Source: a virus. Taken from it: a stretch of 24,078 nucleotides of DNA. The position numbers were made by a program, and so were the translations under genes. Below are positions 847 to 18,856 of the stretch, in pieces. Position 1 is the first letter of the stretch, and every line of letters begins with the position of its first letter. The stretch spans positions 1-24,078 of IMG/VR virus record IMGVR_UViG_3300045778_000027. One strand, written 5' to 3'. Under the pieces are notes generated by a model. It saw only the letters and a list, made by a program, of their open reading frames with translations, was not told the origin of the DNA and did not search any database.

Positions 847-1245
847 ATGAGAGAACTAGCGTGGTCTATATGGTCCCTAGCGCCTTGGGCCATTTTAGGC
901 TGGTGTTGGGTAAAGAGACAACAAATGAAAGATAAGAGAGACGCGAGAATTGCTTACCTCGAAAGCATTAAGCCACCTTATGGTTCAGAAGAGATTCATG
1001 CCTGGAGATTAAAAAGATTTAATCTTTTTCACGAATACGAGGTTACAATAGATAGGCCACAGGTAGAAGAGACTATAACCTATTATAGTGACATGGAAGC
1101 CTGGATCAAAGAATATAATGTAGATGTCGTCTATCGACCTGATTTCCCTTACGACAGAAGACTAGTGAATACGAGAATTATGAGATTTACCTATCTTTTT
1201 CGCAATAAGAAAGACGCAATGCTATTCAAACTGACATGGAGTTAA
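847..1245 (+). CDS. Small membrane-anchored protein ending in LFKLTW motif
   Basis: 132 residues, start set by an AAGGAG SD about 8 bases upstream. Residues 6-23 (Trp/Ala/Leu/Ile-rich, followed by KRQQ) form one likely transmembrane segment. A soluble domain of about 100 residues follows, with an aromatic/charged beta-alpha pattern. The protein ends NKKDAMLFKLTWS, the C-terminal motif shared by the next two genes and by the two genes at 9896 and 10189. It is the only family member with an N-terminal membrane segment. Function unknown. It probably heads an operon with 1249 and 1608 (3-base gap, then an overlap). Confidence 0.75.
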   Translation: MRELAWSIWSLAPWAILGWCWVKRQQMKDKRDARIAYLESIKPPYGSEEIHAWRLKRFNLFHEYEVTIDRPQVEETITYYSDMEAWIKEYNVDVVYRPDFPYDRRLVNTRIMRFTYLFRNKKDAMLFKLTWS

Positions 1246-1248
1246 GAA

Positions 1249-1608
1249 ATGACAAATATAATATATGTAAATCCTGCTAACATTAATGCTAAATGGCCAC
1301 CTGATCTTGAGTTATTCGATTTCAGGTATGAGGTAACAGAGGTATTTCTATTAGAATGTCATAAATGGAAAGAATATGAGGAGTTCCTGGACTGGATGCA
1401 CGAGAATAATATCGTAATGACTAGAACAATAAAGCATTGCGGTATGTTTTTCGATCCAGATGGAGATGAATATGACGCAAACTGGTTCGAAGTAGAAAAT
1501 ATTCGACAAACTATGAAACATCGCTGTATTGGTAAGCATCTTGCTCCTGGTAATGTAATCCTTGAGTTCTCTAGACAAGACGCGATGCTTGTGAAGTTGA
1601 GCTGGTAA
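1249..1608 (+). CDS. Small paralogous protein, LFKLTW family
   Basis: 119 residues, acidic and aromatic-rich, starting 3 bases after the previous stop. Residues about 16-50 (LELFDF ... EYEEFLDWMHENNI) align well with the next protein (LELFDF ... EYKEFLNWRVDNGI), so the two are paralogues by visible alignment. It ends SRQDAMLVKLSW with nothing after Trp. No catalytic motif is seen and I do not know its function. The start has no strong SD, so translation is probably coupled to the upstream gene. Confidence 0.75.
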   Translation: MTNIIYVNPANINAKWPPDLELFDFRYEVTEVFLLECHKWKEYEEFLDWMHENNIVMTRTIKHCGMFFDPDGDEYDANWFEVENIRQTMKHRCIGKHLAPGNVILEFSRQDAMLVKLSW

Positions 1609-1952
1609 TGAAAACACTCTATGTAAGCAAATATAATGATTGTTACTGGCAACACCCCTTTGTGCTAGAATTATTCGATTTTGAGATTAAAAAGAGTGAA
1701 ACTTTTATCTTTTATTGTAATAATAGCGAAGAATACAAAGAATTTTTGAATTGGAGAGTGGATAATGGGATAAAGCAGATTAAGGGATATAAGAAACACT
1801 CTGGATATTTCTGTGATAGTGGACAAAATCACAAACAAGTCAGACAAGCATTAAATCAAGGCTGCCCTGTTATCGGTGATATAAAGGGAAATTACGCCGT
1901 GATTATCGATGTCCCGATAGAAGATGCACTTTTGATAAAATTAACTTGGTGA
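1608..1952 (+). CDS. Small paralogous protein, LFKLTW family
   Basis: 114 residues, start ATG overlapping the previous stop (TAATG), a classic coupling arrangement. It shares the LELFDF and EYxEFLxW segments with the gene at 1249, and the C-terminus PIEDALLIKLTW with the whole family. Cysteines are few and not paired like a zinc site. Probably a small soluble accessory protein; role unknown. Divergence between the two neighbours is high, so the duplication is old. Confidence 0.75.
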   Translation: MKTLYVSKYNDCYWQHPFVLELFDFEIKKSETFIFYCNNSEEYKEFLNWRVDNGIKQIKGYKKHSGYFCDSGQNHKQVRQALNQGCPVIGDIKGNYAVIIDVPIEDALLIKLTW

Positions 1953-1959
1953 AAAACAT

Positions 1960-1965
1960 TAAATA
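1960..1965 (+). promoter_or_regulatory. Candidate late promoter element TAAATA
   Basis: ATTAAATAGT in the 39-base gap before the glycosyltransferase, about 20 bases upstream of its AGGAGG SD, leaving room for a transcription start between them. Confidence 0.35.
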
Positions 1966-1991
1966 GTATATCTATTAAACAGGAGGTGAAA

Positions 1992-3359
1992 ATGAAGATA
2001 TACGATAAAAGAGTTGCCTTTGCTATTTCTAGTTGGAATTTAATTGCCCACGGTGGTGTTGGTATTTTCGCTAAAACCTTTTTCGAAATGGCTGATGAGT
2101 TAAACTGGAAAGTGGATATTATACTTGATGTTCCACCTAAAAATAATAGTTTAGTAGACTGGTTAAAAGCAAGAAACACTAAATTCTTTATTCCACATAA
2201 TCCAATGAAATATGACGAACATCACAACATATATGTATTCAGTTCAACTTTATGTAACGAGAGGATAATCAACTTTCGTAATGCGTTTGTACAAGCGATG
2301 TCCGAACATGTATATGACTTTGTAATAGCCAACTTTCTAGAAGAAGTGGATGCAATTTATAATTTGGGATTCAGTAAAAATATTCCAATATTACTCTATA
2401 CCCATCACGAAAACACAGTTGGATTTTCTAACGATGTATTTATGGAAGAATATAGAACACGATACATTTCGCAGATGCAATATCCAAATATGGTAGTTGG
2501 CACCCAGTCAGAAGTAAATGTCGAATTTCTAAAAACTTCTTATAATGTATCTGCACTAGCATTACCTATGCGTGTTCCAGAAAGACAGTTACTTGAAAGT
2601 GTTGACCAAGAGAGAGATGGATTACTATTTATTGGCAGATACGAAGAAGGTAAAAATCCAGAAGCATTTACCAAAGCTTGTGAAGAAATAGGGGCAAAAC
2701 CAAAAGTCTTAACAGGCAAATCTTCAGTTAAGAAATGGATTGCAGAATTTAATAGACTTGGTATAGTTGACTATGAGATAAAAGCAGGAGTTATCGGTCT
2801 TGAGAAAGTAAAATTTATACAGAGTGCAAGGATGGCATTTCATCCATCATTAAGAGAATCATTTTCCTTTGCTACTTTTGAAGAACTTCACTCTTGTCCT
2901 ACATATGCTTTTGTCGAATATGGTTGGTATAATAATTTTAAGGATTTAGGTATCAACAAAGTTACTAAAAAAGATTACATAGAAGTAATGAAAGAATCTT
3001 ATAATCAACCTTGGGATCAAGAGTTCTACTTGAACCAACTTTCTAAATTACAAGAACACGATAAGAATATTTCAAGTAAATGGAAAGCTGTATTAGATAA
3101 TTTCAAGTCCAGGTCTACAAATAGAAACAAGAGAATTGTAGACCTGTTAACAGATAAGTGTATTACTCTACAAGATTTTTACAAGTTAAGAGACAGACCA
3201 TCTCTTGTCGGTGTAGACGAATATGCTTCTGTTCTAAATCAACGATCTTACTATAAAGTAATACAGGTAGATGATTATACATATGTAACTTCAAAGACAA
3301 ATAACATAGTATTTCCTGTAGAGTCAAAGAAAGATGACGATGATCTATTCTCATTCTAA
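1992..3359 (+). CDS. GT-B fold glycosyltransferase (GT4-like)
   Basis: 455 residues from the ATG at 1992. The GTG at 1986 overlaps a perfect AGGAGG SD (1981-1986), so it is not used. The N-terminal Rossmann half has the HGGVG loop (residues about 20-24). The C-terminal half has LLFIGRYEEGKNPEAF (from about 211) and HPSLRESFSFATFEEL (about 284-299) with the E-x7-E donor-site pattern (E289, E297) of retaining GT-B enzymes. It should transfer a sugar from a nucleotide-sugar; the acceptor is not shown. In phages, candidates are modified DNA bases or surface polymers. The last residues are SKKDDDDLFSF, an acidic Phe-ended tail discussed in findings. It stands alone between two TAAATA elements. Confidence 0.85.
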   Translation: MKIYDKRVAFAISSWNLIAHGGVGIFAKTFFEMADELNWKVDIILDVPPKNNSLVDWLKARNTKFFIPHNPMKYDEHHNIYVFSSTLCNERIINFRNAFVQAMSEHVYDFVIANFLEEVDAIYNLGFSKNIPILLYTHHENTVGFSNDVFMEEYRTRYISQMQYPNMVVGTQSEVNVEFLKTSYNVSALALPMRVPERQLLESVDQERDGLLFIGRYEEGKNPEAFTKACEEIGAKPKVLTGKSSVKKWIAEFNRLGIVDYEIKAGVIGLEKVKFIQSARMAFHPSLRESFSFATFEELHSCPTYAFVEYGWYNNFKDLGINKVTKKDYIEVMKESYNQPWDQEFYLNQLSKLQEHDKNISSKWKAVLDNFKSRSTNRNKRIVDLLTDKCITLQDFYKLRDRPSLVGVDEYASVLNQRSYYKVIQVDDYTYVTSKTNNIVFPVESKKDDDDLFSF

Positions 3360-3362
3360 ATA
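3357..3362 (+). promoter_or_regulatory. Candidate late promoter element TAAATA
   Basis: TCTAAATATA overlapping the stop codon of the glycosyltransferase, 32 bases before the next start. The overlap with a TAA stop makes a chance match easier, so support is weak. Confidence 0.25.
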
Positions 3363-3393
3363 TATCTATAGTTAATTAACAGGGAGACAAGGA

Positions 3394-3771
3394 ATGGGAA
3401 AAGAAAAAGTTTCTGTAGGTACACGTTTTATAATTGCTAATGAAGCTGGGTCTCGTAATGACCTAGCTTCAAAATATAATATAAGTCTAGTTTACATTAC
3501 TGAAATTAGAAGAAATTTCGGTAAAATACAAAGAAAGTTTTTATATGGCCAAATTGGCTTATCCGAAATTCGTTCTATTAATGGTTGTACAAGTGAAGAT
3601 GTAAAAGTATTCCTGGAAATAGTTCACCAGGCACGAGAGAAATATATTCGTGTTCCTAAAAATATATGTGTTCTAAAATTTACAAAAAAAGACTGGTATC
3701 TAGCAAGAGACAGAGAAGTTGTAGTCTGGTCAGGGTCTATATCTTCAAGCCCAAATCAGGTCGCTGTCTAG
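3394..3771 (+). CDS. Small helix-turn-helix protein
   Basis: 125 residues, with an AGGGAGA-type SD before ATG 3394. Residues about 19-42 (SRNDLASKYNISLVYITEIRRN) fit a helix-turn-helix, with the second helix after NIS. A second short helical repeat (LSEIRSINGCTSEDVKVFLEIV) follows. DNA binding is therefore plausible, as a regulator or an orphan recognition domain; no nuclease motif is present. The final codons lie in a 17-bp sequence that recurs 311 bases downstream (3758-3774 and 4069-4085). It is the last plus-strand gene before the candidate origin, so a role at that locus is possible but is inference. Confidence 0.65.
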   Translation: MGKEKVSVGTRFIIANEAGSRNDLASKYNISLVYITEIRRNFGKIQRKFLYGQIGLSEIRSINGCTSEDVKVFLEIVHQAREKYIRVPKNICVLKFTKKDWYLARDREVVVWSGSISSSPNQVAV

Positions 3772-4085
3772 ACTTCAAAGTAGAAAAGTAGAAGTAGAAA
3801 CAGGGTTTGAACAACTATAAGAAAACTTTTTAGCTTAAATTAAAATATATACTATACACTCCTACAAAACTATTACTTTTCTTACTTTCTTACTTAAAAT
3901 ATATATAATATAGGTTTTTTATATAGGTTTTGCTAGAGAAAGCTAGCTTTTTGGGTAAGTAAGAATACATAGAAATTACCTTGTATTCTTACTTTTGTAA
4001 CCCAAAGTTATACTTAATAATCGATGTTAATTTTCTGTATCCTGCCATCAGGCCAAGGCTCAAAGAAAAGGTCGCTGTCTAGACT
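3758..4085. repeat. 17-bp direct repeat pair flanking the AT-rich region
   Basis: AGGTCGCTGTCTAGACT occurs at 3758-3774 and again at 4069-4085, exact, 311 bases apart. The first copy covers the last codons and stop of the helix-turn-helix gene. The repeats bracket the hairpin-rich part of the intergenic region. They may record a duplication or insertion, or be a functional pair of binding sites. Confidence 0.7.
3951..4006. repeat. Large imperfect hairpin
   Basis: AAGTAAGAATACA at 3957-3969 pairs perfectly with 3982-3994. The stem extends outward, after a small bulge, through GGGT/ACCC (TTGGGT at 3951 with ACCCAA ending 4005). The loop is 12 bases. There is no strong T-run, so a structural or origin role is as likely as termination. 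Confidence 0.6.
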
Positions 4086-4105
4086 ATGTTAGAAAAATAG
4101 TAATA

Positions 4106-4295
4106 TGTTACGATTTTCGGGGTCCCAAAAACTCTCTAGAGACTCAAACTATATATAGTAAAAATCTATATTATATAATAAATATTTTATAATAATATAA
4201 CATCGTAACATATATCGCCCAAACTGGCTCTACACCTAGCTTTTTTGAGTGTTACGATGTTGGAAATAAAAACCCAACATCGTAAAATCGTAACA
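4106..4295. repeat. Iteron-like TGTTACGAT motif in both orientations
   Basis: TGTTACGAT at 4106-4114 and 4250-4258 (plus), and its complement ATCGTAACA at 4202-4210 and 4287-4295. A variant, ATCGTAAAA, is at 4279-4287. Copies at 4252-4263 and 4274-4285 also form a perfect 12-bp inverted repeat with a 10-base loop just past the stop of the helicase gene. Five copies of a nine-base word in 190 bases is far beyond chance and suggests a protein binding array (initiator or regulator). Confidence 0.65.
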
Positions 4296-5873
4296 TCACA
4301 TCGAGAAATTGAGCTGTTTTACCTTCCCATCTAGAAAATATTCTAGATATAGGTCGTCATTCACGAATTTTGGACTAGTATTCGTGTCTATCCATACATC
4401 TTGAGTTATTCTATCATTTCCGTGTGTAAGATTTTTCTTATCACCCATTATAGTCGGCTTATTCTTGAGTAACCAATTTTCTACTGCTGTATTGAAGTTT
4501 TTTGGCTTGAGCATAAAATTTATATGCTTGTGAGTAATATAGTAAGCCTGTTGGTAATAATCTCTCAATACACTTTTCTTAATATGAGTAAATGTAGTAT
4601 CATTAAATATTGCTTCAATTATTTCTATATGAAATGGCTGCTGTACACCTAGTAACTTCTTATAATCTGCTCCGTGTAAGCAAGAAGTATTTTGTACATC
4701 TCCGTGTTTTTGATACATACAATATAGCCACTTACCTACTTCTGTCTTGTCTTGTAATATAGTTGGAATAGCAACAGATTTAATCCAATCTTCACAAATC
4801 TTTGAAGTCTTATTTGGAATATTAAGTCTTGAATCCTTGACTAAAATATCGTAGATTGGAATACCACCATTTACAATACTCAGTCTATCATCGCTTGGAT
4901 CTCCTGTAACTCTCATAGCACCTTGAAATTCATTAGATTGAATTATTACTAGACAAGTAACATTTGTAAAATATTCTGGTTTGTTCTTCTCGTTACAAAC
5001 TATAGTTGAAGTCATTAACTTACTTTTTAATGCATTCATATCTATTTGTTCGTGGTCGTTGGTTTCATTTATTGCTATTACAGCTTTCCCAATCGAAACA
5101 GAATTGAAGTTACCAATATAATTCTTAATGTCTATATTGACTGCAACTAAATCTTTTCCAAATACTGTTGGTAATAATATTTCTGCAAGTAATCCTTTGC
5201 CTGTTCTACCTCGGTCATTTAATACAAGAGCAGGTAGCATTTGGTCTTCTGGATGTAGATACTTGTTCAATATAAGACGTTCTATATGAGTAATGTTTTC
5301 TTGTTTTCCACCACCGATTGAACTGATCAATACATCGAAGAACCAATGATAATTTGGAGATTCGACTGGTTGACAGAAATCCCACTCTAATAGATTCAAG
5401 TAATAAGGCATTTTCTCTTTCGTCCATTTATGTGTTAGGTCGAATACTTTTAATTCTTTCTCATTTAATACTTCGTCTAGTAAATCGAAATATGTAGGGT
5501 CTTTGGTTTTCTTATTATAACCTTCAAGTCCACCTCTCTTAATAAACTTCCATTTATTATTCTTGAATAATATCCACCAACCGTGGTCATTTACATAGAA
5601 GTGTAATCGTTCATCTTCTACCCATTTTTCGATATCTTGTTTTAATTGGGTATTGTCTCTAACGGGTTTCTGTATACCCATCTTACCTTCTATTTCATCT
5701 ATATATCTTAATATATCTTTTTTAGTGCCTTTTTTCTTCACACTAGCAAGATAATTGATTACTTGATCGTATTTGCGAAATATTTTAAGTTTGTCAATTA
5801 AATCTTCGTAATCCAGTTCCTGTAATGCTGGTTCATTCATTATTCTTCGTATAATTTCGTCTTGAATACCCAT
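4296..5873 (-). CDS. SF3-type replicative helicase (DUF5906/P4-primase-like)
   Basis: 525 residues from the ATG at 5873, chosen because GGAGG stands just upstream and the start overlaps the previous stop (TAATG). The longer start at 5915 would overlap the previous gene by 43 bases. Walker A is RGRTGKG (residues 221-227) and Walker B AVIAINE (264-270). A following LKSKLMTS ... VIIQSNE stretch matches sensor motif C of viral SF3 helicases, in the style of DUF5906 and phage/plasmid primase C-terminal domains. The N-terminal 200 residues lack a primase catalytic signature; the primase is the separate gene at 6736-7701. It should unwind the phage origin or fork. It is the last gene of the minus-strand operon and ends at the iteron-like array. 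Confidence 0.85.
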   Translation of the reverse strand: MGIQDEIIRRIMNEPALQELDYEDLIDKLKIFRKYDQVINYLASVKKKGTKKDILRYIDEIEGKMGIQKPVRDNTQLKQDIEKWVEDERLHFYVNDHGWWILFKNNKWKFIKRGGLEGYNKKTKDPTYFDLLDEVLNEKELKVFDLTHKWTKEKMPYYLNLLEWDFCQPVESPNYHWFFDVLISSIGGGKQENITHIERLILNKYLHPEDQMLPALVLNDRGRTGKGLLAEILLPTVFGKDLVAVNIDIKNYIGNFNSVSIGKAVIAINETNDHEQIDMNALKSKLMTSTIVCNEKNKPEYFTNVTCLVIIQSNEFQGAMRVTGDPSDDRLSIVNGGIPIYDILVKDSRLNIPNKTSKICEDWIKSVAIPTILQDKTEVGKWLYCMYQKHGDVQNTSCLHGADYKKLLGVQQPFHIEIIEAIFNDTTFTHIKKSVLRDYYQQAYYITHKHINFMLKPKNFNTAVENWLLKNKPTIMGDKKNLTHGNDRITQDVWIDTNTSPKFVNDDLYLEYFLDGKVKQLNFSM

Positions 5874-6352
5874 TAAATATTGCCTCCGAATGTTAATTTT
5901 TCGAGTAACAGCCAATTTCTAAATGACTGCATATTATCTACGGCTGTTTGAATATAAGCATACTTGATTTGCTCGTATTTTATAAGTTTTTCTTCAATAT
6001 TACCAGAATATAAATCTACTGACTGATTATTTCTAAAAACAAGATTGACCGTCCATTTTTCTTCTTCATTTTCAGTATACCTGTCGTGTGAATAGTGAGT
6101 ATTTTTATATTGAAATATTGAAACATCTACACCTAGAATACCTCTACTATGATATTCTGGATCAACTCTTTTGTCTTCTGCTGCTATATCATTTTCGTGC
6201 CATCGATGGGCATATCTATTAAGTGCATCTACAAACATTTCGATAGTTTCTCTATCTAACATTTCGCAAAAAGAATAACCTCTACGTCCACCTATTAATT
6301 TAGGTGTAGATGGCATTCTATAATATTTTTGTCTATTCGTTCTAAAAATCAT
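5873..6352 (-). CDS. Hypothetical replication-operon protein
   Basis: 159 residues, with a CAGGAG SD 6-8 bases before the ATG at 6352. Not recognised. It is highly charged with many Tyr, Asn and His (YKNTHYSHDRYTENEEEKW), no membrane segment, and no Walker or nuclease motif that I can identify. Its stop overlaps the helicase start, so the two are translationally coupled, which suggests a partner or loader of the helicase; that is inference from context only. Confidence 0.7.
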   Translation of the reverse strand: MIFRTNRQKYYRMPSTPKLIGGRRGYSFCEMLDRETIEMFVDALNRYAHRWHENDIAAEDKRVDPEYHSRGILGVDVSIFQYKNTHYSHDRYTENEEEKWTVNLVFRNNQSVDLYSGNIEEKLIKYEQIKYAYIQTAVDNMQSFRNWLLLEKLTFGGNI

Positions 6353-6373
6353 TTTATCTCCTGTGATAAATAG

Positions 6374-6400
6374 ATATACAAGAACCCATTTCTTGTATAT
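6374..6400. repeat. AT-rich hairpin between operon genes
   Basis: Perfect 11-bp inverted repeat, arms 6374-6384 and 6390-6400, with loop CCCAT. It lies in the only sizeable gap of the minus-strand operon, before the gene at 5873-6352, together with the palindrome at 6439. In the minus-strand mRNA it would form a leader hairpin about 20 bases upstream of the start codon. Confidence 0.6.
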
Positions 6401-6438
6401 TAGATTATTAAAATCTCCTGTTTTAATGAATCCGATCT

Positions 6439-6464
6439 AGCCCAGGAACATATGTTCCTGGGCT
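6439..6464 (+). terminator. 26-bp perfect palindrome with T-run on plus strand
   Basis: Positions 6439-6464 are a perfect palindrome (13-bp arms, centre CATATG), followed on the plus strand by TTTTGTATT. This fits a terminator for plus-strand (antisense) transcription. For the minus-strand operon there is no T-run after the stem, so it may instead be an RNA processing or stability structure between 6471 and 6352. Confidence 0.55.
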
Positions 6465-6470
6465 TTTGTA

Positions 6471-6734
6471 TTAGCGATAGACAGTGAACTCCATTTCTTG
6501 TCCAGACAGAAACAATTCTAGTGCTACTTCACACCTTGTCCTGGCTTTCTTAAATTCCCAAGGTTTGCAACCATCGAAATAGAACCACCAATCCATAATC
6601 ACATTATTATTTGGATTATGTCTGCGATATATTTCTTCATAGTCTCGATTAAATAATATTTCGAGTCCAGTTTGGTCCCTAGTGAATCTATATGGTAATG
6701 TAGTTCTTAACAATAATTCTTTTTTGCTTCTCAT
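6471..6734 (-). CDS. Small hypothetical protein after the primase
   Basis: 87 residues from ATG 6734, one base after the primase stop (TAAGATG), with GGAG about 10 bases upstream in the end of the primase gene. A longer frame reaching 6896 overlaps the primase and is a shadow. The sequence is basic at the N-terminus (MRSKKELLLRTTLPYRFTRD) with WWFYFDGCKPWEFKKARTRC in the middle. The aromatic-rich core suggests a small folded domain, but I do not recognise a family. Coupling to the primase suggests a role in replication. Confidence 0.65.
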   Translation of the reverse strand: MRSKKELLLRTTLPYRFTRDQTGLEILFNRDYEEIYRRHNPNNNVIMDWWFYFDGCKPWEFKKARTRCEVALELFLSGQEMEFTVYR

Positions 6735-6735
6735 C

Positions 6736-7701
6736 TTACTTGCTCCACTTAAATGAGTTACTATTATATGCGTAATCAATAGCATTCTTGGCTTCTTTAA
6801 TAAAAGACCTATGTTGCTTGTGCCAACGACCATCCTTTTTAAGATCAAGAGAACTAGCAAGTTGAGATAACTGAAGTGCATCGATAGTAATTCCACTTCT
6901 TACTGCTGCTCCTGCTACCTTAACCATAAAAATGTACAACCCCTTAAAATGTAATCCTTGACCAGAAGGTAAATCCAGGTATTCATCCACCCAGTATGGG
7001 CTGACTATCGGACTGTTCAAGGATACAGAACATAGGCTGCTAGTGTTATTTGGTCTAGCATATACCACCTGTTGTATCGATGCAGGCGGTGGCGGTGGAA
7101 AAGCTTCTATCAGCAAGTCAGGATCAAGTTCAAGCCCTGTAGTGCTTACATGTAATCCAGAGAATGCGCCTGGATAAATGCCTGGAACATAGTAACCACG
7201 CGATAAATCCTTGCACTGCTGATCAGTTGCGTGATCGAACATTTCGAATCCTGCGTGCCACACATCTTTCATCTCCTTTGGTAATACTGTTCTAGTAAAT
7301 GGTATGAATAACCTAAATTTCGGGCAAGTAATAGTTGCACTAGCAGTAGTATAGAGTGCATACTTGTATCCTTGAATTATAGGTAGAATTGAACTCGGTG
7401 ACACTGAACCAGTAACATCGAAGTCTAGAGCTAGAAATGACCACCCTGTAACATATTCATTCTTACGATGAACTATTCCATTATCATATAGAGCAGGGGA
7501 AATAAGTGGTGCGTGACTTTTATCTACTTGTTTTATTGTAGACCACGCTTCAATGTACATACAGAATTCAGCCCAATTCTTCGTGCTCTCGTTTGTACAC
7601 GCAGCAGAAGGGCACCACTTAATAATGTTTCTATTCCCATCTTCGATTGTCTTTGGGAATGATACCATATAACTATATCGAAATCTTGAGTTTGTCGGCA
7701 T
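6736..7701 (-). CDS. Archaeo-eukaryotic-type primase (prim-pol)
   Basis: 321 residues, ATG 7701 preceded by AAGGAGG. LALDFDVTG (D93, D95) is the metal-binding DxD of the AEP primase fold. CPKFRLFIPFTR (127-138) and DQQCKDLSRGYYVPG (160-174) match the conserved basic/aromatic and D-x-SR-x-YxxP blocks of phage and plasmid AEP-type primase-polymerases. A Pro run (FPPPPP, about 205-211) links to a C-terminal helical region (about 240-321) that could be a PriCT-like domain. It should make primers, and possibly extend them, for the SF3 helicase encoded two genes downstream. In NrS-1-type enzymes these activities are in one chain; here they are split. Confidence 0.8.
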   Translation of the reverse strand: MPTNSRFRYSYMVSFPKTIEDGNRNIIKWCPSAACTNESTKNWAEFCMYIEAWSTIKQVDKSHAPLISPALYDNGIVHRKNEYVTGWSFLALDFDVTGSVSPSSILPIIQGYKYALYTTASATITCPKFRLFIPFTRTVLPKEMKDVWHAGFEMFDHATDQQCKDLSRGYYVPGIYPGAFSGLHVSTTGLELDPDLLIEAFPPPPPASIQQVVYARPNNTSSLCSVSLNSPIVSPYWVDEYLDLPSGQGLHFKGLYIFMVKVAGAAVRSGITIDALQLSQLASSLDLKKDGRWHKQHRSFIKEAKNAIDYAYNSNSFKWSK

Positions 7702-7729
7702 TGCTTGCCTCCTTAAAAAATTAAAAAAA

Positions 7730-7936
7730 TTATTCTGCTGCTTCCATAGCCGCTTTTACTTGCTTCCATTTCTCTTTTATAGCTGCAGAAATAGCAGCTT
7801 TGTGAGCATCGCTCTTTGGCACTCCCTTGCTTGCTTTGCTCATATTTTCTTTACACTTGTCGGTTTTAGCGACACCCTTTAGTGCATCGCTGATTCTTTG
7901 TCTACGAAGCTTTTCTGCTTCAACTATTTTATTCAT
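7730..7936 (-). CDS. Free-standing NUMOD3-like DNA-binding protein
   Basis: 68 residues, start ATG 7936 overlapping the preceding stop (ATGA), AAGGAAG upstream. Two tandem units are visible: RISDALKGVAKTDKCKENMS and KASKGVPKSDAHKAAISAAI, each with the GxxKxxxxK/H...S/A pattern of NUMOD3 modules, which normally serve as DNA-binding parts of homing endonucleases such as GIY-YIG or HNH enzymes. No nuclease domain is attached. It could be a remnant, a partner of the HNH/AP2 nuclease four genes upstream in the operon, or an independent DNA-binding protein. A long T/A run follows it before the primase SD. Confidence 0.65.
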   Translation of the reverse strand: MNKIVEAEKLRRQRISDALKGVAKTDKCKENMSKASKGVPKSDAHKAAISAAIKEKWKQVKAAMEAAE

Positions 7937-8826
7937 TTCGTTTCTTCCTTTACTTGAATAAGTTTCATTCCGTAATTGTTAGGTTCTGTAGGCAATACAA
8001 AACCTGGTCTAAATTTTAATAGATTGTTTCTCTTGAACCCGTTGTAATTGACTGTATGATGCCACCTGGAGAATTTGTAGACTAGTTCAGAAACATCGGG
8101 ATGTACATCAACAAGCATCTTCGATTTAGCTACAGTTCCTTCTTTGAAATAAAAATCTTCACTATTACCTCCCTTCATAATCTGTGTTGAGATTTTATTC
8201 TGCAATAGACTATTGAACTGTATTGTACATAGTCCAGCTTTTAATATGTCAATAGATAAAATACTGTCTTCATTATATCGTCCCCTCCACCTAAATGGAA
8301 TATCATTCTTAATAAGATTACAAGAATAAATCCTCGTGTTAATAGTAAATGGTGGTAAATTACCTTTCTTACGAAGACAAAACATGGTGTAGTTGGGACC
8401 ACTCATTACAACATTTTCATATCTAATTGTAAAATCTTCACAAGCATCGAAGAAAGTAGATGCCTGACAAGGAATTTTAAGATTATGATTGAATCTAGCA
8501 AAGTTAGAAATGTTATCGTCCATCACCCAATGCCACTCATGTCCATAAGCAATAGAGTGATCCCACGCGAAGTTGCGCGCAGGACCAGGACCAGTAGACT
8601 TGGATAATCCAAGGTCATCACAGAGTTCGTACATAGATTTATAATCCAAATCTAGAGGTATTATGGTAGATTTTAATTCCCATTTATTAATGGCTTCCTG
8701 GTAATCAGCTATTTGGTCTGGTTCTACTATAATATAATGAGGAACATTCATTTTCGTAAGGGTTTTGGAAGTCATCATATATTGACTTCTACCTTTACTA
8801 GGTATATAAATTGGAAATTTTGGCAT
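7933..8826 (-). CDS. TET-associated-type glycosyltransferase (GT-A-like)
   Basis: 297 residues, ATG 8826 with AGAGGTG upstream. The N-terminal FPIYIPSKGRSQ and YIIVEPDQ blocks, GPGPARNFAWDHS (about 79-91) and HWVMDDNISNF with D103/D104 as the DxD-like metal site match the glycosyltransferase family associated with TET/JBP enzymes and GREB1 in phages and eukaryotes. A later RWRGRYNEDSILSIDILKAG block is also typical. Known or proposed role of the family: glycosylation of hydroxymethylated or otherwise modified DNA bases. No TET dioxygenase or hydroxymethylase gene is in this window, so the base substrate is unknown. Confidence in the family is fair, lower for the substrate. Confidence 0.7.
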   Translation of the reverse strand: MPKFPIYIPSKGRSQYMMTSKTLTKMNVPHYIIVEPDQIADYQEAINKWELKSTIIPLDLDYKSMYELCDDLGLSKSTGPGPARNFAWDHSIAYGHEWHWVMDDNISNFARFNHNLKIPCQASTFFDACEDFTIRYENVVMSGPNYTMFCLRKKGNLPPFTINTRIYSCNLIKNDIPFRWRGRYNEDSILSIDILKAGLCTIQFNSLLQNKISTQIMKGGNSEDFYFKEGTVAKSKMLVDVHPDVSELVYKFSRWHHTVNYNGFKRNNLLKFRPGFVLPTEPNNYGMKLIQVKEETK

Positions 8827-8827
8827 A

Positions 8828-9088
8828 TTACACCTCTTTTAACCCTTCAAATAAGACATATGCCTTATCTATGACTTTTCCAATTTCTGCTTGTGGATGC
8901 CAAACAGCTTTTGTTCTAGTTGTTAATGGTTGACCAATAATCTTCGAAAAATCTTTTATATCTTCTTCATTCTTGAAAGATACGAGAATTTGATACTTTG
9001 GAGTTTTGTCTTTATTATCGTAATCGGGCATACCTGCGTAAGACATTACATCTTGAGGTAGTTCAAATAAATCATCTGTTTTTGTCAT
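8828..9088 (-). CDS. Small conserved phage protein
   Basis: 86 residues, ATG 9088 with AGGAG 8 bases upstream. The core TPKYQILVSFKNEEDIKDFSKIIGQPLTTRTKAVWHP is a beta-alpha-beta pattern that I recall from small phage proteins and from domains attached to phage DNA methyltransferases; I cannot name a verified function. It is separated by 1 base from the glycosyltransferase start (TAATATG) and so is co-translated with it, which fits a DNA-modification context without proving it. Confidence 0.65.
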   Translation of the reverse strand: MTKTDDLFELPQDVMSYAGMPDYDNKDKTPKYQILVSFKNEEDIKDFSKIIGQPLTTRTKAVWHPQAEIGKVIDKAYVLFEGLKEV

Positions 9089-9099
9089 TATTAAATCTC

Positions 9100-9588
9100 C
9101 TATGGTTCGTAGTGGTTAATGAAATCTTTACCATATGTTGATACTGCTTTTTCAAGCCAATGCTGATAGGCTTCTTCTGGCGTATCGCAAGTAGGTAACT
9201 TAATAGATTTGTAGTTGTAATTGAATACAGCATACCATCTTGCTTTGTTCTTGACTTGACGAACACATCTGAATCCAGTCTTATTGTTCTTTGAAATAAC
9301 TCGCTTAAATGAATTCTCTCGTCTTGTAATGACTTGAAGGTTCTTCCAGCGATTATCATTTCGAATACCATTCTTATGATCCACCTGCTCTAGTGGAATA
9401 TTAGGTAACTTTCCAGTCATATATAATACAGCGCAGTTATGTTGCTTATATGTCTTTCCACTTATTGAAATAGAATTGTATCCATTAGAACTTCTTGATT
9501 TTACTACTTTGTTCGTCTTTCTACTGAAGAAAGTTCCAGTATCGGGGTTATAATAGTAACTTCGTCTTAATAATGCTTCTGTTAGCAT
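9100..9588 (-). CDS. HNH endonuclease with AP2 domain
   Basis: 162 residues, first gene of the minus-strand operon, ATG 9588 with AGGAGAG upstream. The HNH core is LEQVDHKNGIRNDNRWKNLQ: D70/H71, then N79, and N83-L in the third motif. From about residue 101 an AP2 DNA-binding domain follows (NKTGFRCVRQVKNKARWYAVF ... CDTPEEAYQHWLEKAVSTYG). This architecture is typical of free-standing phage homing endonucleases that nick or cut cognate sites and spread into related phages. Length is normal and nothing is broken. It sits beside the divergent promoter region. Confidence 0.85.
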   Translation of the reverse strand: MLTEALLRRSYYYNPDTGTFFSRKTNKVVKSRSSNGYNSISISGKTYKQHNCAVLYMTGKLPNIPLEQVDHKNGIRNDNRWKNLQVITRRENSFKRVISKNNKTGFRCVRQVKNKARWYAVFNYNYKSIKLPTCDTPEEAYQHWLEKAVSTYGKDFINHYEP

Positions 9589-9620
9589 AATAGTCTCTCC
9601 TGTCTAAAAAATCGAGCGGC

Positions 9621-9647
9621 CTAGGTCTCTAGGTCTCTAGGTCTCTA
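9621..9647. repeat. 8-bp tandem repeat, 3.4 copies
   Basis: CTAGGTCT repeats at 9621-9628, 9629-9636 and 9637-9644, plus CTA, all exact. It lies between the minus-strand candidate promoter and the HNH start, so in the 5' leader of the minus operon. Slippage-prone; copy number could vary between isolates. Confidence 0.75.
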
Positions 9648-9651
9648 TTTC

Positions 9652-9659
9652 TATTTATA
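9652..9659 (-). promoter_or_regulatory. TATAAATA, candidate late-type promoter
   Basis: Exact T4 late consensus TATAAATA on the minus strand, 64 bases upstream of the HNH/AP2 start. It could drive the whole minus operon. In an AT-rich intergenic region an eight-base match still needs experimental support. Confidence 0.4.
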
Positions 9660-9855
9660 AATCTATCTAGTCTAAAATTACCCCAAACAGGCTTTTTGGC
9701 GCTCGGACCTAAAAAAAGAAACAAATAAAAAAATTTTGGGTTCGCCACGAAACATTGTTACCCGGAATGGTCACGCCACGAAATTTTCGAAAAAAAAGCG
9801 CGGGTTCGAGTGGGCTAAAAATCTAAAATTTAATTTGTCCTCTTATTACTCTTAC

Positions 9856-9861
9856 TAAATA
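9856..9861 (+). promoter_or_regulatory. Candidate late promoter element TAAATA
   Basis: ACTAAATAAA, 35 bases before ATG 9896 and about 18 bases before its AGGAG SD. Placed to start transcription of the terminase and head gene block. Confidence 0.35.
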
Positions 9862-9895
9862 AACTAGCAAGCGTAAAACAGGAGAATTTTATCTA

Positions 9896-10183
9896 ATGAT
9901 TTTTAATAAATGGACTACTACTCAAGAGAGAGCAGAATTAGAGTTATGGTGTAATGAAAATTGTATAGGTGAATATACTATAACTTGGATATATTCAGAT
10001 GAAGATATAAATGAACTTACTGACTATTGTAGATTCGTTCCCGTAAATATTGAAGGTATAAAAGTTGGATATTTAGAAGTACAAGATATAAGAAAAATTA
10101 ATTGGAACAATGTCATTTTTAAGACAACGATCAAATTTAATGATCAGCAAGATGCAGTTCTATTCAAGTTAACTTTGGGATAA
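9896..10183 (+). CDS. Small LFKLTW-family protein
   Basis: 95 residues, start ATG 9896 with AGGAG at 9880-9884. The protein is acidic and Trp/Tyr-rich, and ends IKFNDQQDAVLFKLTLG, nearly the same as the ends of the genes at 847 and 10189. The N-terminal part does not align clearly with the other members, so the shared element is mainly the last 15 residues. A beta-strand, DA-helix, final strand arrangement would suit a small ferredoxin-like domain, but this is inference. Function unknown. It opens the plus-strand operon ahead of the terminase. Confidence 0.7.
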   Translation: MIFNKWTTTQERAELELWCNENCIGEYTITWIYSDEDINELTDYCRFVPVNIEGIKVGYLEVQDIRKINWNNVIFKTTIKFNDQQDAVLFKLTLG

Positions 10184-10188
10184 GAAAT

Positions 10189-10470
10189 ATGAAAGTAAAA
10201 ATCGAATCAAGTGAATTATTAAATTTAACAGTAACCGATATATCAAATGAAGATTTCGATAATAATATTTTACCTTGGCTTGAAGAAACCATTCCCTGTT
10301 TTTCTTGTATTAAAAAATATATCGGTGACCAATATATTCATAAGAATGTATTTAATAACCTAGATGATAATATTTTACGCTTTGAAGTTCCAGAGTTGAG
10401 TTTGTCTGCTGCTCATATATATTTGCCTACAGAATCAGATATAGTTCTATTCAAATTGACTTGGGGATAA
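10189..10470 (+). CDS. Small LFKLTW-family protein
   Basis: 93 residues, starting 5 bases after the previous stop. Acidic and isoleucine/leucine-rich, with two Cys in CFSC. It ends TESDIVLFKLTWG. The DNA across its end (10438-10478) matches the end of the previous gene (10151-10191) at 36 of 41 positions, including the following TAAGAAATATG start junction, so the 3' ends are related by duplication or gene conversion even though the bodies are not obviously similar. Function unknown. Confidence 0.7.
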   Translation: MKVKIESSELLNLTVTDISNEDFDNNILPWLEETIPCFSCIKKYIGDQYIHKNVFNNLDDNILRFEVPELSLSAAHIYLPTESDIVLFKLTWG

Positions 10471-10475
10471 GAAAT

Positions 10476-10826
10476 ATGCCTGAAGCACCACCTACATTCA
10501 AAAATACTTTTATTCGCAAACGAGAACCAAACAAACAGAAACAACAACTTGATTCATTAAGTTATGGTAATGATTGGGTTATTTTTCGGGAAGATTATAA
10601 AACAGGGTTCGATGAAGATGGTATGCCTCGTAGTTTATGTCGACATTGTTTCGATTTAGATATTATTAAATTTGCCGATGTCCTTGATCATATTGAGCCA
10701 GTAAGAGTAAATCCAGATAGAAAGCTAGATGAAACGAATATTCAACCTCTATGTAATTCACATCACGCCAAAAAAACACGTGAAGATTACGAAAAATATC
10801 CAAATCATTATACAAGTAATAAATAA
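10476..10826 (+). CDS. HNH endonuclease adjacent to terminase
   Basis: 116 residues from ATG 10476. An upstream TTG at 10461 lies inside the previous gene and is less likely. CRHC (C55, C58), VLDHIEPV (D71, H72), N88 in ETNIQPLC, C93 and HH (96-97) give a zinc-stabilised HNH fold of the kind encoded next to terminase genes in many phages. In HK97-type phages such an HNH protein assists terminase in cutting the packaging site, which would fit a cos-type mechanism here; the homing alternative is less likely given the position. The final KKTREDYEKYPNHY is typical of the family. Confidence 0.85.
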   Translation: MPEAPPTFKNTFIRKREPNKQKQQLDSLSYGNDWVIFREDYKTGFDEDGMPRSLCRHCFDLDIIKFADVLDHIEPVRVNPDRKLDETNIQPLCNSHHAKKTREDYEKYPNHYTSNK

Positions 10827-10832
10827 AATCAA

Positions 10833-11087
10833 ATGATTGATTTATGTAAAAGAGAACAAGACCTTCGACTTGAAGTAATACAAACAAACGGTCTTATAGA
10901 TGACGGTCAACTTGTAGGTATTGCCAGAATGTGGATGTTTAATCCACTTAAGGGAAATTTAATAATGCCAGATGATTTACAGCCTGAAACTCTTATAAGA
11001 TGGCTAAAAGCAGTAGAACTACTTTGGTATCACCAAATGAATATGCCTACTGAAGAATTGTTAATATGCAAATTATCGATGGAGTAA
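10833..11087 (+). CDS. Hypothetical small protein before terminase
   Basis: 84 residues, no good SD before ATG 10833; it starts 6 bases after the HNH stop, so coupling is likely. Mostly helical by eye (REQDLRLEVIQTNGLIDDGQL, PETLIRWLKAVELLWYHQ). It ends TEELLICKLSME, which loosely resembles the LFKLTW terminus (E-x-L-L-x-x-K-L-S), so it may be a divergent member; I rate that as possible only. Position just before the small terminase gene suggests a packaging-related role, unproven. Confidence 0.6.
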   Translation: MIDLCKREQDLRLEVIQTNGLIDDGQLVGIARMWMFNPLKGNLIMPDDLQPETLIRWLKAVELLWYHQMNMPTEELLICKLSME

Positions 11088-18052: not shown

Positions 18053-18421
18053 ATGAGTAATTTACCAACTACTGTAGGCAATATGAGATGGTCTGTATTA
18101 CTAGCAGATGAATACTTGGTACAGAAAGGTGTCACCTTAAAAACTGTATATGAAAATCCTGTTACTGTATTCGCTGCAATAGGTCCAAGTAAACCTTATC
18201 GTGCTCTATATGGTGTACAAGCAGACATCGGTAATTTCACACATCGAATAGTAATTCGTTACAGACACGATATACATTTATTTAAGGCAGTCATTAGACA
18301 ACGAGAACGAATTGACGGCACTATAAATATAGAAATATTTCGTATTCATTCAGTAACAGAATGGGAAGGCCAGCAAATTTGGCTAGTATTAGATGCAGAA
18401 CTCTTAACAGGAACAAATTAA
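18053..18421 (+). CDS. Head-tail adaptor / head closure protein
   Basis: 122 residues, SD AAGGA before ATG 18053. Beta-rich, with FTHRIVIRYRHDI and RIDGTINIEIFRIHSVTEWEGQQIWLVLDAELL, the pattern of SPP1 gp16-like head closure proteins. Residues from about 51 to the end are duplicated in the next ORF, differing at H/P in RYRHDI, A/E in FKAVI and A/V in LDAELL. This copy has the complete N-terminus and is taken as the functional gene. Confidence 0.85.
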   Translation: MSNLPTTVGNMRWSVLLADEYLVQKGVTLKTVYENPVTVFAAIGPSKPYRALYGVQADIGNFTHRIVIRYRHDIHLFKAVIRQRERIDGTINIEIFRIHSVTEWEGQQIWLVLDAELLTGTN

Positions 18422-18856
18422 AGTGGCAGATTTTATTTCATTAACTATTGATAATAAAGCAGTTTTGTTTGACAAGAAAGAAGTCAAGAAAGTTGTTAGA
18501 CAAGCAGGTATAATCTTAAAAAAGCCTGCTCTAAATGGTGTACAAGCAGACATCGGTAATTTCACACATCGAATAGTAATTCGTTACAGACCCGATATAC
18601 ATTTATTTAAGGAAGTCATTAGACAACGAGAACGAATTGACGGCACTATCAATATAGAAATATTTCGTATTCATTCAGTAACAGAATGGGAAGGCCAGCA
18701 AATTTGGCTAGTATTAGATGTAGAACTCTTAACAGGCACAAATTAAAGTGGCAGATTTTATTTCATTAACTATTGATAATAAAGCAGTTTTGTTTGACAA
18801 GAAAGAAGTCAAGAAAGTTGTTAGACAAGCAGGTGTAATCTTAAAAAAGACTGCTC
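18202..18856. repeat. 325-bp direct tandem duplication
   Basis: Two adjacent copies: 18202-18526 and 18527-18851, with TGCTC at each boundary (18202, 18527 and 18852, spaced exactly 325). By eye only about eight single-base differences separate the copies. The unit holds the last 72 codons of the adaptor gene and the first 35 codons of the tail completion gene. It is not a multiple of three, yet the junction is in frame and makes the chimera at 18423-18746. Confidence 0.9.
18423..18746 (+). CDS. Chimeric ORF: tail completion N-terminus fused to adaptor C-terminus
   Basis: 107 residues, GTG start one base after the adaptor stop, in the same context as the GTG at 18748. Residues 1-35 match the start of the 18748 protein (MADFISLTIDNKAVLFDKKE ...) with one difference (GII for GVI). 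From about 36 it switches to the last 72 residues of the adaptor, carrying RYRPDI, FKEVI and LDVELL in place of RYRHDI, FKAVI and LDAELL. It is an in-frame product of the tandem duplication. It may be a translated by-product or a second adaptor-like subunit; I cannot tell which. All three amino acid differences in the adaptor part are non-conservative. Confidence 0.7.
   Translation: MADFISLTIDNKAVLFDKKEVKKVVRQAGIILKKPALNGVQADIGNFTHRIVIRYRPDIHLFKEVIRQRERIDGTINIEIFRIHSVTEWEGQQIWLVLDVELLTGTN

Follow-up and report, generated by a model that had tools for sequence, protein, structure and literature searches.

A family of small phage proteins with a common FKLTW C-terminus, present in dozens of copies in some giant phages

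The window analyzed here (G000) is a virus record of 24,078 bases from a tailed phage, probably a phage fragment, whose large terminase is approximately 35% identical to the terminases of Burkholderia and Marinobacter phages. Six open reading frames (ORFs) in it had been proposed, from the sequence, to form a family of small proteins sharing a C-terminal ending. All six are present in the window sequence, with the following coordinates and endings:

847 to 1245, plus strand: family member of 132 amino acids ending in DAMLFKLTWS, with the Trp helix MEAWIKEYNV and a hydrophobic N-terminal stretch, a possible anchor (E, 9e-10; rank 2 of 198)
1249 to 1608, plus strand: family member of 119 amino acids ending in DAMLVKLSW, with the Trp helix EFLDWMHENN (E, 0.018; rank 4 of 198)
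1608 to 1952, plus strand: family member of 114 amino acids ending in DALLIKLTW, with the Trp helix EFLNWRVDNG (E, 0.62; rank 5 of 198)
9896 to 10183, plus strand: family member of 95 amino acids ending in DAVLFKLTLG (E, 3e-11; top rank of 198)
10189 to 10470, plus strand: family member of 93 amino acids ending in DIVLFKLTWG, with the Trp helix NILPWLEETI (E, 4e-7; rank 3 of 198)
10833 to 11087, plus strand: proposed sixth member ending in ELLICKLSME, mostly helical in appearance; unsupported, with no profile match

Ranks and E-values refer to a profile grown without any window sequences and run against the 198 ORFs of the window, with E-values scaled to 10,000 sequences. The five members occupy ranks 1 to 5, and the next ORF follows at an E-value of 9.8. 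Profile A2, which includes the five window proteins, is circular for the window and was not used as evidence. The original prediction thus holds for five of its six proteins: the clean profile gives no match to 10833–11087, the supposed divergent sixth member, and the ICKLSME ending of this protein may be a product of chance. The membership of 1608–1952 rests partly on its homology, extending along its length, to 1249–1608, its paralogue (34% identity over 106 residues; E, 1e-17), with whose stop codon its start codon shares one base. When the last 10 residues are cut off, 9896–10183 keeps its match to the clean profile at 5e-7 and both 847–1245 and 1249–1608 are matched weakly, with 10189–10470 and 1608–1952 not rising above background. 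The membrane anchor proposed for 847–1245 is plausible at most, consisting of a hydrophobic segment rich in Trp with basic residues after it. None of the six ORFs has a match better than an E-value of 0.03 in Pfam or PHROGs. In IMG/VR, the only relatives of the window terminase and of 10833–11087 belong to the same virus in another assembly, and no relative of 1249–1608 was found.

Other features of the window include an HNH endonuclease gene at 10461–10826, which separates the family members from the terminase, and a tandem duplication of 300 bases (98% identical; spacing, 325) at 18202–18826 in the head-tail gene region, which creates a chimeric ORF (18423–18746) in which the beginning of one gene is joined to the end of the adjacent one. 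In addition, a perfect palindrome at 6439–6464, between two minus-strand genes, forms a hairpin of 11 pairs; TTT follows it, and it is a possible terminator.

A degenerate DNA pattern for D-A-x-x-F-K-L-T-W scanned over IMG/VR returned 89 stretches with 106 in-frame matches, repeats included, in 99 distinct ORFs. A stop codon follows 1 to 3 residues past the Trp in 85 of the 106 matches; a few matches run on for 11 to 24 residues past it. With a broader profile, 326 of 402 relatives (approximately 80%) stop no more than 3 residues from the profile end. Upstream of the motif, the relatives share a helix of the form acidic-W-[LC]-x-x-N and a hydrophobic strand whose last residue is Phe. In the conserved alignment columns, the Trp of helix 1 is present at 98% and the Phe before the motif at 83%, and the terminal helix shows Ala at 90%, Phe at 94%, Lys at 90%, and Leu at 93%. 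Only three parts stay constant across paralogues, namely the Trp helix, the strand, and the terminal helix. Comparison of 101 members with Pfam, PHROGs, NCBIfam, and PADLOC revealed no shared family, giving scattered single weak matches or none, and no family in a PDB sequence search recognizes the members. We hold with high confidence that the five window genes and their relatives constitute one large phage protein family of common fold that has no library entry.

Copy numbers, taken as whole-record profile counts, reach 93 in a phage of 416 kb and 83, 82, and 76 in three phages of 436 to 465 kb; further records contain 63 copies in 183 kb, 50 copies in 119 kb, and, in another record, 61 copies. 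Phosso, an isolated Sinorhizobium phage of 469 kb, carries 49 copies, annotated as hypothetical where inspected. Some 20-kb stretches are made up almost exclusively of family members. At one locus (L074), 36 members lie within about 12 kb in two facing blocks, and at another (L175), 36 of 45 genes are clear members. In sampled stretches, the family accounts for 7% of genes in Phosso and for 16.5%, 29%, and 41% in G001, G006, and G012, respectively. Among the ten largest non-family genes checked inside arrays, the only ones identified were one HNH endonuclease and one M15 peptidase.

The profile finds no match in T4, phiKZ, G, RaK2, P-SSM2, XacN1, SCTP-2, CBB, and CcrColossus, nor in four smaller named phages (13 of 15 named phages in total), while six weak matches occur in Atu_ph07 and one match in Vp_R1. 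When individual members were compared with 50,697 phage records by tblastn, the search was too weak, and Phosso alone was clearly found. A scan of 84,980 cellular genomes gave ten occurrences of the exact pattern. Two of them, in Rhizobium and Novosphingobium, are clear members that apparently reside in prophages; in Rhizobiaceae, 2 of 298 genomes have a profile match. The family occurs almost exclusively in phages. The weak relatives, such as those in Atu_ph07, show a strand followed by an acidic-Ala/Ser-helix signature (e.g., FFKNKSDSLRFKLANG and FKRRTDALKFIKHIND), and their last helix is apparently longer, is not C-terminal, and mostly lacks the FKLTW ending. This suggests that the FKLTW form may be a shortened version of a wider class.

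The copies are old. Of 257 copies with a comparison, 248 have their closest counterpart in another genome and not in their own, a count made on nine copy-rich contigs or loci that cover only part of each genome. Orthologue-like pairs have a median dN/dS of 0.14, with no value above 1 in 39 usable pairs, and their residue differences amount to 30% in the rest of the protein versus 24% in the tail. Nearest copies in other genomes together with the low dN/dS indicate old, separate, maintained genes and not fresh duplicates. Purifying selection also speaks against a chance resemblance of short, biased C-termini. The motif is short and some window members are weak; however, 10,328 reversed ORFs yielded no profile match below an E-value of 0.2, and most of the named phages have no match, whereas others carry 49 to 93 copies. 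Chance is refuted for the family, where we give it next to no credence, and is possible for 10833–11087.

The same data bear on the idea that the copies, spread by tandem duplication, serve as decoys or inhibitors against host defenses and have diversified rapidly and recently under an arms race. Dense same-strand arrays such as those of L074 and L175 fit this idea, as do the widely varying lengths and N-termini, and binding of defense proteins by old, stable copies would be compatible with the data. Yet the nearest relatives lie overwhelmingly in other genomes, dN/dS is far from values above 1, and no member matches PADLOC, and we consider such decoys improbable.

Selection acts on the protein. 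Synonymous diversity in the motif matches that in the gene body, for example at Leu (2.50 versus 2.56 bits) and Ala (1.93 versus 1.92 bits), with Phe as an exception showing moderate codon bias (0.79 versus 1.00 bits), and such similarity indicates that neither DNA nor RNA is the level selected. The genes are closely spaced and many tails continue with Gly-Gly, which could point to a translated nucleic acid feature, namely a ribosome-binding site for the next gene, a recombination site, or a terminator. However, the codons of the motif are as diverse as those of the gene body, and the Gly-Gly tails are mostly encoded by GGTGGN and are not enriched before close downstream genes. Codon diversity rules out an RNA-level feature, and the Gly-Gly tails do not act as ribosome-binding sites either; the probability left to a nucleic acid feature of any of these kinds is negligible.

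The original prediction had offered two accounts of the fixed ending: a common small fold whose last helix and strand are conserved, or a docking tag read by one partner. An AlphaFold model of 9896–10183, the only window protein modeled, was built on an alignment of 101 very divergent sequences and has a mean pLDDT of 85.4; residues 81 to 90 average 96, making the terminal helix its best predicted part. The model comprises strand b1 (2–7), helix a1 (9–22), strand b2 (27–33), an inserted helix and hairpin (35–62), strand b5 (75–81), and the terminal helix (84–94). D-A-x-L-F-K-L-T-W is accordingly predicted as the last alpha-helix of a beta-alpha-beta-...-beta-alpha domain and not as a loose tag. 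The common fold gains support from homology that reaches the upstream helix with its Trp and from an ending that lies in a well-predicted helix; of the conserved "last helix and strand," the helix stands, and no strand follows the ending in the model. The profile and this one model indicate that the gene stops at the motif because the domain ends there. Helix 1 is normally amphipathic (hydrophobic moment, 0.37), and the terminal helix has hydrophobic residues on almost every side (0.17).

A PDB fold search with the model gave no significant match (best E, 0.39; TM, about 0.4). The best of these matches are ferredoxin-like proteins of the PII/GlnK and CutA types, which share the beta-alpha-beta layout; the family model lacks the last strand of the ferredoxin-like fold and has no sequence match to them. 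In BFVD, two uncharacterized proteins of uncultured Caudovirales phages, A0A6J5P8C3 and A0A6J5LSA7, have fold probabilities of 0.99 and 0.87 with TM values of 0.53 to 0.58. Their E-values (0.14 and 1.2, respectively) are not significant, and neither protein has a name or function.

We favor, with a probability of roughly 60%, a reading in which one family with a single small domain uses its terminal helix as a common contact while each copy performs a specific accessory job. One face of the helix would pack on the sheet, and the other, with the almost invariant Phe-Lys-Trp, would form the contact common to all copies. We infer this contact from a helix that is hydrophobic at nearly all positions and has Lys at 90%, since such a helix usually makes contacts on both of its sides; we see about even odds that it serves as a common surface, either for a shared partner or for a dimer. 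The hydrophobic helix could instead be buried by a longer N-terminal part. Searches for a partner gene of the family and for a solved or named relative returned none. The variable N-terminal and loop parts would give each copy its own target; few parts are constant across paralogues and the rest is conserved between orthologues, which fits a common part combined with a copy-specific part. In big phages, purifying selection maintains dozens of old, separate copies, and divergence and dN/dS suggest that each copy has a single stable and specific accessory task during host take-over and does not act as a hypervariable decoy. A role as modulators of host take-over is put forward tentatively, at somewhat less than even odds. 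In T4 internal proteins, the capsid-targeting sequence is an N-terminal, cleaved signal. These likewise display a short terminal element common to otherwise variable small phage proteins; unlike that signal, the FKLTW element is C-terminal and, in the model, part of a folded domain.

The docking tag would be a short helix attached to different folds and read by one hub, to which dozens of proteins could thereby connect, with a phage or host AAA+ protease, RNA polymerase, or the ribosome as candidates. Similar tails do occur on helical-looking proteins of Rhizobium sp. 2MFCol3.1 (L095, 644–5245) and a related record (L134, 2561–4509), five of which end in VAKLSYTGGAA, VAKLSYDGGEA, VAKLRLSV, LLAKLSQQ, and LLAKLAQE, next to true members ending in FKLTWDGGAA, FKLSYGGGEA, and FKLAHGGGQ. 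The AlphaFold model of one of them (L095, 644–913; pLDDT, 80) is all-alpha, and its tail forms a short helix, although the model rests on 5 sequences. The near-invariant Lys and the hydrophobic residues all round the terminal helix would also suit a tag, and Phosso encodes ClpX-like and ClpS proteins. However, in five family-rich phages a loose motif ends only 12 of 1,102 non-family genes, against about 4.7 expected, with about 5 of the 12 being perhaps divergent members (one Phosso cluster, or look-alikes). The helical set is limited to two related prophages; a profile of the helical tails found no further relatives, and the helical protein occurs in 1 of 298 Rhizobiaceae genomes. Because the motif is rare outside the family except in these prophages, we place the common fold first and regard a docking tag, with any of the candidate hubs, as unlikely. 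Rather unlikely too is a hub-and-adaptor system in which a hub would read the FKLTW helix on up to about 90 old adaptors per genome with varied targets, and in which other folds in some prophages would bear this helix too.

For most genes of giant phages no function is known, and here one unrecognized family makes up a large share of gene content. Phage G carries an expansion of a zinc ribbon with about 35 copies that was called unprecedented (Iyer et al. 2021, PMC7824862). There, too, a single small domain of unknown function has expanded within one giant-phage lineage. The FKLTW domain is a different one, is absent from phage G, and reaches 76 to 93 copies, more than twice as many, exceeding per genome the largest phage expansion that we found in the literature. 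A search of open-access literature returned no biological text on FKLTWG and nothing on the family among paralogous expansions of jumbo phages. Lineage-specific expansion of small domains in giant phages is a known kind of event; the FKLTW family differs in sequence and has no entry in the libraries searched. Since the copies are old and conserved, each likely matters, and with Phosso, an isolated phage whose host is grown in the laboratory, the question is open to experiment.

Finally, a tRNA neighborhood of the arrays, suggested by Phosso, is absent from most arrays of other phages. Phosso (L150, 1983–2058) and G001 (L166, 11086–11159) each contain a tRNA gene that ARAGORN labels tRNA-Pyl and whose anticodon is CTA, and these are possibly amber suppressors; many ORFs at both loci still end in TAG. 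In addition, a small-gene cluster of Phosso (L161, 1588–3356; 391–393 kb of the genome) encodes proteins ending in VILKLALGI, MILKLMT, VILKLAL, MLLKLTFV, and MLLKLMFS, a possible divergent branch of the FKLTW domain.
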